A stretch of 64,000 nucleotides of DNA from Dermatophagoides farinae. Its lineage: Eukaryota; Arthropoda; Arachnida; Sarcoptiformes; Pyroglyphidae. The DNA lies in contig NC_134677.1 of the NCBI RefSeq assembly GCF_024713945.1, positions 5,707,001-5,771,000 of the forward strand. The letters are read 5' to 3'. Below the pieces are notes generated by a model, which was not told where the DNA came from, ran no database searches, and saw only the letters and a list, made by a program, of their open reading frames with translations. This document shows positions 5,753 through 37,874 of the stretch, one piece after another; within the stretch, counting starts at the first letter, position 1, and each line of letters begins with the position of its first letter. A program made the translations under genes and the position numbers.

Positions 5753-8030
<2,278 letters not shown>

Positions 8031-36587: not shown

Positions 36588-36596
36588 GAACAGTGA
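36588..36596 (+). repeat. target-site duplication, left copy
   Basis: GAACAGTGA directly abuts the left end of the foldback element; the identical 9 bases follow its right end at 37866-37874. Confidence 0.85.
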
Positions 36597-36726
36597 GGTT
36601 CTGTCACAATTTGTCGAAAATAAAAATGTCGAATACAAAATGGTCGAAAATATTTGATCGAAAATAATAAAGTCGAAACAACAAAAACGTCGAACAGACA
36701 AAAATGTCGAAAATAAAAAAGTCGAA
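36597..36726 (+). repeat. terminal inverted repeat, left arm
   Basis: 130 bases that pair with 37736-37865 with two mismatches. The arm is built from GTCGAA motifs starting at 36613, 36628, 36643, 36657 (as ATCGAA), 36672, 36689, 36706 and 36721, with one more at 36736 in the diverged part. The spacing is 14-17 bp. Confidence 0.9.
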
Positions 36727-37472
36727 GATTGAAATGTCGAAAATGGCTTGAGCCCTTATCCCTTAAAATTATCACTAACGAAAAAGACTCAAATATTATT
36801 TTTTCATTTCAATTCTGGATAATCACAGATTAAGATGATAAAATTTTATTTTTATTCGAACTATTTGGATTCATATTATTATCAATTCACTTTATATTTT
36901 CATTCAAAGTTGTTTGTGATTATTATTTGATTGTTTATCGATTTACTACAGCATCAAAATTATCTGTAGAAATATAATAATCACTCGTAACGAAGTTTAA
37001 GCACAAGTTTTATTTACGGTGATAAATATCAGTTAGATGGTATATTAATTCAAACAATATATAAGTCGCCAACGTAAGCCAAATCAGAAGTGAAGTCTTC
37101 TTCTCTGTCCATCGTTTTTATATGCCTTTTTCCAATCGATATTGGTCTTTGTCATTGATTACCAAACGACTCATTGTTGGTCATAATGCTGGTAATCATT
37201 CGTCATTCTTGTCTATTAGTCATGATTAGCCATCCTGGTTTGTTGCTACCTATTTACAAAACATCGTTACCATTATTTGACTCATTCCTTGTCATCGATA
37301 TTTGAGTCTTCTGGATGATCTTCAGATTAGTTATTTTTACATATCTTTAAGTAATTATTGAAGAGTGGGTGATAAAAGGACCATTCAATGTTATGAACGG
37401 TCTTCACAGGGCCAAAAATGTTTATTTTTTTTTAGTTTAGGTTTTTTTTTTAGTTTAGGTTTTTTTTTTAGT

Positions 37473-37492
37473 TTAGGTTAGGTTAGGTTAGG
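37473..37492 (+). repeat. (TTAGG)4 telomere-like array inside the foldback element
   Basis: Four perfect TTAGG units are preceded by three longer T-run units ending in AGTTTAGG (37424-37477). TTAGG is the canonical arthropod telomere unit. Confidence 0.85.
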
Positions 37493-37513
37493 TGATCTCG
37501 GTTCATTAGATTA

Positions 37514-37544
37514 ATCCAAACCTCACCTTCGGTGAGGTTTGGAT
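37514..37544. other. perfect 14-bp hairpin
   Basis: ATCCAAACCTCACC, a TTC spacer, then its exact reverse complement. It lies 22 bases after the TTAGG array, inside the foldback element. It is GC-richer than the surroundings. Confidence 0.9.
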
Positions 37545-37735
37545 AAAACTATTGTATTGACAAACAATCTAGAATAGAGATCAAAGTCTAAAATACTATA
37601 AATCGGTTCATCGATGTTTTACACTTTCGTCTCAGAAAATTTCCTTGTCTTTGACAATAATAAGTAAAGTTTTCGTTTTCGTTTTCGTTAAGCGCTCACT
37701 CATTTAAGGGGATAGGGGTTTTCGACCTTATTGTG

Positions 37736-37865
37736 TTCGACTTTTTTATTTTCGACATTTTTGTCTGTTCGACGTTTTTGTCGTTTCGACTTTATTATTT
37801 TCGATCAAATATTTTCGACCATTTTGTATTCGACATTTTTATTTTCGACAAATTGTGACACAACC
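37736..37865 (-). repeat. terminal inverted repeat, right arm
   Basis: Reverse complement of the left arm (36597-36726) with 128 of 130 positions identical by eye. A GTTTTC triplet repeat (37675-37689) sits just inside its diverged extension. Confidence 0.9.
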
Positions 37866-37874
37866 GAACAGTGA
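37866..37874 (+). repeat. target-site duplication, right copy
   Basis: GAACAGTGA, identical to 36588-36596. Confidence 0.85.

Follow-up and report, generated by a model that had tools for sequence, protein, structure and literature searches.

An element of 1,269 bp with inverted arms and a perfect 9-bp duplication lies at positions 36597-37865 of a 64,000-nucleotide stretch of the Dermatophagoides farinae genome (contig NC_134677.1, positions 5,707,001 to 5,771,000 of the forward strand). The whole of this stretch is referred to here as the window. The locus raises the question of whether the element is one copy of a mobile family and, if so, which kind of transposase would move it.

Structure of the window copy

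The following parts were assigned to the element (positions in the window; strand in parentheses):

36588..36596 (+), left target-site duplication GAACAGTGA, by direct reading
36597..36743 (+), left arm: 16-nt tip GGTTCTGTCACAATTT followed by nine 14-17-nt units starting GTCGAA or ATCGAA
36744..36964 (+), interior common to nine short sibling copies (97-99% identity, all matches falling within interior positions 1-225)
36961..36964 (+), TATC, left duplication of the nested solo LTR
36965..37341 (+), nested solo LTR, 377 bp, TG...CA, common to copies L009 and L022, with an empty site in L012
37342..37345 (+), TATC, right duplication of the nested solo LTR
37380..37680 (-), core module, used as the query for the core search; copies also at loci with other arms
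37473..37492 (+), (TTAGG)4, an arthropod-type telomere repeat
37514..37544 (+), 14-bp hairpin ATCCAAACCTCACC-TTC-GGTGAGGTTTGGAT
37719..37865 (-), right arm, tip GGTTGTGTCACAATTT, read inward
37866..37874 (+), right target-site duplication GAACAGTGA, by direct reading, an exact match to the left one

The arms at 36597-36726 and 37736-37865 are unlike at 2 of 130 positions (C/G at arm position 5 and A/G at position 84), and the inverted similarity extends to 147 bp with 8 mismatches. The earlier note had reported the two differences and the perfect 9-bp duplication, and both were confirmed by direct reading; for the duplication, the chance controls described below agree. Units of the left arm start at arm positions 17, 32, 47, 61, 76, 93, 110, 125 and 140, the last unit being cut by the arm end. 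The loop of the hairpin varies between copies, with TTC in some and GAA in others. The element had also been said to have no coding capacity; this holds for the window copy, which is overlapped by no open frame of at least 120 aa. When one arm was folded as single-stranded DNA, the result was no better than that of shuffled sequences (z = -0.11; 88 of 200 shuffles as good), so that any foldback structure needs both arms. Comparison of the element with Rfam gave a lone match, to a plant microRNA family, which lies outside the core and was rejected (E 0.21; 23 bits against a gathering score of 55). A search of the same assembly for an empty site of the window copy brought back the filled locus and nothing else, which in a haploid assembly carries no information.

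The description of the element as intact can be accepted only with a reservation: 377 of the 1,269 bp are the nested solo LTR; the element without it measures about 0.89 kb. The LTR was matched to LTRs at C2:2.62M, C3:6.17M and C1:8.91M (92% over 251 nt, about 80% over 122-123 nt), and at two of these three places the related LTRs occur as pairs 2,572 bp apart. Sibling copy L012 keeps the LTR-empty site AAAATTATCTTTAAG. The same insertion is present in L009, with TATC on both sides; in L022 the left junction agrees with that of the window copy, whereas the right junction has been lost. Since the window copy has its own 9-bp duplication and a flank unlike that of L009, the LTR was presumably aboard before the window copy last jumped. 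L070:1292-4323 and L071 were recognised as LTR elements (LTRs 2,572 bp apart) related to the nested solo LTR; the interior of the L070 element is largely a degenerate minisatellite of about 87 bp.

Copies, duplications and arm architecture

The genome searched comprised 62,435,336 bases in 22 contigs. A frame for a group 21 allergen in this genome agrees with Der f 21 at every residue from 22 through to the end at 133, in line with D. farinae as the host. The 147-bp arm gave at least 36 matches, falling into at least 20 loci including the window. Sequence was retrieved for the 19 loci besides the window, and the 20 were split into 16 of type A (tips GGTTCTGTCACAA / GGTTGTGTCACAA) and four of type B (tips GGTTCTATAACAA / GGTGCTATAACAA), the B arm being 78-87% identical to the A arm over the first 52-82 nt. 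Both tips are present in 15 copies, one tip in L009, L017, L021 and L022, and none in L023. A 22-nt tip pattern, searched with up to 3 mismatches, was found at 82 sites; 34 are exact and every one of these is a tip of the family loci, and the remaining 48 have 2 or 3 mismatches, against 36 sites for a reversed control pattern.

Many copies with different 9-bp flanks, named in the earlier note as the mark of a mobile family, were recovered at these loci. Among the 15 two-tip copies, a perfect duplication of 9 bp was found in 11 and one of 8 bp in three, and L010 (1,671 bp) has none; all 14 duplications differ from one another. Two controls were applied to the 15 two-tip loci. When flank positions were shifted, 37 of 60,000 pairs (0.06%) matched over at least 8 bases, and when left and right flanks were paired across copies, 0 of 210 pairs matched over 8 or 9 bases, against 14 of 15 true pairs. 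The duplications are therefore not a product of chance. Their AT content is 72.4% and that of the flanks 72.0%, which indicates no preference of base composition. Directly after the right duplication of the B copy L026 (C2:3186050) stands GGTTCT, the first six letters of the family tip; it may be due to chance or be a tiny remnant of another end.

Identity among the nine short A copies (886-974 bp) is 97.4-100%. L012 (contig C4), L013 (C3) and L016 (C2) do not differ at any position over 928 bp, yet each has a duplication of its own. Because these three copies on three contigs are identical, the family must have moved recently. The identities of 67-71% between the other copies and the window copy or L010 are an artefact of aligned inverted or unrelated interiors and no measure of divergence.

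Inverted repeats across the 15 copies measure 164-628 bp (gapped local alignment). The A arm, as read in the window copy, consists of the 16-nt tip and nine GTCGAAAA-type units of 14-17 bp. Two of the four B copies (L026 and L024) were scanned with TRF, and on each side a 15-bp unit present 3.5-4.5 times is followed by a 38-bp unit present 8.1-13.5 times. Each of the nine short A copies contains one or two instances of ACGTCAG, a heptamer of the 38-bp unit, which the window copy and L010 lack. In 10 of the 11 two-tip A copies the tips at the two ends differ (C/G at position 5). For comparison with the imperfect palindrome at the tip of the Aedes element Muta1, the mite tips were read by eye: the GGTTG tip includes TTGTG-T-CACAA, which has one break in the GGTTC tip and is not evident in B.

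As read from the alignments, interior position 1 adjoins the GGTTG tip in all nine short copies, whereas in L009 and the window copy its neighbour is the GGTTC tip. With the opposite tip beside interior position 1, one lineage would carry an inverted interior, an outcome to be expected if inverted arms exchange.

Broken Ty1/copia reverse-transcriptase frames were found in three of the four B copies (L025, L026 and L027). Pieces of L025 and L026 matched RVT_2 of Pfam (best E 3.8e-15), and the frame of L027 is alike by eye. Over about 2.1 kb the long B copies share 92-98% identity, and the duplications that flank them are of three different sequences. On the simplest reading, the copia fragment was picked up once and then spread, as with the host-gene fragments carried by Muta1 (PMC5225508, partial text).

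Superfamily and source of the transposase

In Aedes aegypti, Muta1 has a TIR of 145 bp with nine copies of a 12-bp unit and 8- or 9-bp duplications, and Muta5 a TIR of 151 bp with nine copies of a 15-bp unit; Muta1 is described as a type 2 foldback element with little or no target preference and with variable or captured interiors (PMC5225508, partial text). Muta elements belong to the Phantom group of MULEs (PMC6446971, partial text). Tm1 of Meloidogyne, a Mutator/foldback element, has composite arms with a variable number of 13-15-bp units, and its duplications are mostly of 9 bp (8-10 bp in 45 of 53 elements) (PMC3169594, partial text).

As far as the available parts of these sources go, the mite family is like Muta1 and Muta5 in its short tip and nine subterminal repeats (12-15 bp there), its 8- or 9-bp duplications and its many non-autonomous copies, and like Muta1 also in having little or no target preference and variable or captured interiors, a likeness in build. 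It is unlike them in that no transposase-bearing mite copy was found and in that subfamily B carries an additional array built of a 38-bp unit. With Tm1, on the same partial basis, it has in common composite arms of tandem units, mostly 9-bp duplications, two unlike terminal motifs and MITE-like copies; the tip and unit sequences differ, and Tm1 has an autonomous copy with FLYWCH and MULE. A hairpin between the arms is a feature of both Tm1-HH, in the part of its description available, and the mite element. The Tm1 hairpin is a histone hairpin, a motif that the mite hairpin does not seem to resemble.

MULEs have target-site duplications of 8-11 bp and long terminal inverted repeats, and the mite family has duplications of 8 or 9 bp (14 of 15 two-tip copies) and terminal inverted repeats of 147 bp in the window copy; it also has the tip with subterminal tandem units of 12-15 bp expected of the Muta and Tm1 type, here with units of 14-17 bp. 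From the architecture of Muta1, Muta5 and Tm1, the element in the window very probably belongs, as one copy, to a small foldback family of non-autonomous DNA transposons of the Mutator (MULE) type in D. farinae. By analogy the mite family would work like Muta1, Muta5 and Tm1 in function; membership of the Phantom group would rest on transposase phylogeny. A MULE-class DDE transposase supplied in trans would bind the 15-bp units repeated along each arm, pair both ends and cut at the GGTT tips. The tips would then be joined to the two target strands at points 9 (sometimes 8) bases from each other, with the duplication arising through gap repair. Slippage and unequal exchange between arms and units could alter arm length and could invert the interior relative to the tips, and such an inversion would be the difference between the nine short copies and the window lineage.

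The Mutator-like label of the earlier note agrees with the 8/9-bp duplications and with the long arms of subterminal tandem repeats but falls short of proof, as no transposase copy with the same arms was found. Against the MULE-type reading, no transposase was found between these arms in this assembly, the sole MULE coding sequence found is broken and has no matching tips, and L010 has no duplication. A longer copy with a MULE or Merlin transposase, also envisaged in the earlier note, was not recovered: no recognisable MULE transposase was found in any family locus, the sole MULE locus found has no family ends, and Merlin gave 0 matches. The whole genome gave one match to PF10551, just under the cut-off, at C3:1,397,048, in a profile search that ignores introns and scores the best candidates only, so that an intron-rich or diverged partner could be missed.

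This match belongs to a locus at C3:1.392-1.398 Mb, the only MULE coding sequence found, in which the frames are broken. Separate frames there match FLYWCH (4.8e-9), MULE (3.9e-6) and LEM-3-type GIY-YIG (1.3e-17), and the three stand in a row at L069:4393-5836 (C3:1396392-1397835). A short TTAGG-type tract lies at the break between two of the frames. GIY-YIG together with FLYWCH was found in no single paper among the open-access matches listed. A 1.18-kb part of the locus is duplicated 3,440 bp upstream (98%), and a protein search with the first piece of the gene returned this locus only. The FLYWCH search gave four matches, two of them at this locus; the other two are in polyQ/N-rich or charged frames with no transposase part (by eye). 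A 41-nt match between the B copy L024 and a stretch 5' of the broken MULE was considered as a transposase link and dropped: a wider search placed the segment at C1:7.90M (73%), C6:0.96M (70%) and C8:3.69M (97% over 34 nt), and not at the MULE locus.

The broken gene could be a remnant of the autonomous partner of the family, which would be a special case of the MULE-type explanation; we regard this as rather unlikely. Besides being the only MULE coding sequence found, it combines FLYWCH with MULE, the build of the Phantom and Tm1 transposases (PMC6446971 and PMC3169594, partial texts). A 38-nt stretch 3' of the gene matches the core region of the window copy at 89%, and 81-90 nt there match the core-bearing loci L082 and L083. 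However, tip-pattern, arm and inverted-repeat searches found no family tips or arms near the locus: it has no GGTT tip and no long inverted arms, and the GTCGAA/TTCGAC words number three, scattered, in 10 kb. The common stretches, moreover, lie next to TTAGG and A-rich tracts and could belong to an independent repeat.

It is quite improbable that the family is mobile by means of a transposase of another superfamily, either Merlin/IS1016 or P/Galileo. Duplications are about 8 bp for Merlin/IS1016 and for P/Galileo; in the mite family 3 of the 14 are 8 bp, in favour of such a transposase, but 11 of the 14 are 9 bp. Galileo of Drosophila, as far as its available description goes, has long, internally repetitive, foldback-like arms as the mite family does, on an element of the P superfamily, and the differences lie in its P-type transposase and its shorter duplications, of about 7 bp. 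The length and number of the mite units match those given for Muta1 and Muta5 in the partial source. For Merlin, PF12762 (DDE_Tnp_IS1595) gave 0 matches in a six-frame search without introns, the control being positive in 1 of 14 genomes. For the P type, PF21787 (TNP-like_RNaseH_N) also gave 0 matches, a weak test in which no control genome was positive.

Spread of a relic by segmental duplication, or an assembly artefact, would agree with the three identical copies and with the failure to find a transposase source, but is hardly credible given that a perfect 8/9-bp duplication accompanies 14 of the 15 two-tip copies, that no two of these duplications are the same, and that cross pairs never match (0 of 210).

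For the Mutator-type foldback family preferred here, the sequence is new and the kind known, as far as could be checked in the open-access literature; no foldback or Mutator-like family in dust mites was described among the literature matches listed. The D. farinae genome paper counts 736 DNA-transposon pieces (55,004 bp, 0.09% of the assembly), and the word MULE does not occur in its main text (PMC11074847). House dust mites have lost piRNAs (PMC5805368, partial text) and are reported to silence transposons with siRNAs (PMC5886382, partial text). A recently moving foldback family with two pairable arms would offer a natural test of this siRNA silencing.

A core shared with other arms

In the shared core, a hairpin (14 to 33 bp) occurs together with an A-rich stretch and a tract of the telomere-type repeat TTAGG. 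The core is flanked by GTCGAAAA arms in the window family and by 16-bp GGCTATTTTCAG / CGCTATTTTCGG arms elsewhere. Interior positions 706-873 of the window copy recur at C4:534k (92%) and C8:2.282M (85%), and parts of the core were also found at C6:3.208M, C10:86.8k and C3:4.119M, with shorter core matches at further places. A 192-nt stretch of the core (37449-37640) folds well as RNA (z = -4.6), mostly due to the hairpin.

Five core loci were fetched, and in two of them (L084 and L085) both arms are of another kind. In L085 (C10:86.8k), inverted arms of 133 bp (90% complementary) enclose the core together with 13 TTAGG units; the arms are made of a 16-bp unit and contain no GTCGAA by eye, and an 8/9-bp duplication was not found at this locus. 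L084 (C6:3.208M) has part of the core between 35-nt inverted arms (91%) of the related unit TTCGCTATTTTCGGCT. A 17-bp GGCTATTTTCAG array lies on one side of the core in L082 (C4:534k), and L083 (C8:2.282M) has a few such 16-17-bp units at one end (by eye) and a hairpin with 33-nt arms. The core therefore stands beside or between 16-17-bp tandem arms (GGCTATTTTCAG / CGCTATTTTCGG) at L082, L083, L084 and L085. At least one further foldback family is indicated in D. farinae. L086 (C3:4.119M) has no such array by eye and has a nested-LTR piece in the same order as in the window copy. As a probable decayed relative of the window lineage, L086 was left out of the shared-core count.

Three origins of the core are conceivable: descent from a common ancestor as a relic, trading of the core as a module, or insertion of an independent repeat into these elements. 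We tentatively consider it possible that arms and interior are separate, exchangeable modules, in which case foldback families would trade one conserved, possibly functional centre while the arms turn over. Through a core common to other arms, the acquisition and exchange of parts by foldback families can be studied, and this core is the part of the locus most worth following.

Interstitial TTAGG tracts in or beside mobile elements were seen at 37473-37492 of the window, at L069:5274-5290, 6063-6091 and 6328-6350, and at L085:222-288. The tract of L085 lies 87 kb from the contig end, and the other tracts more than 1 Mb.
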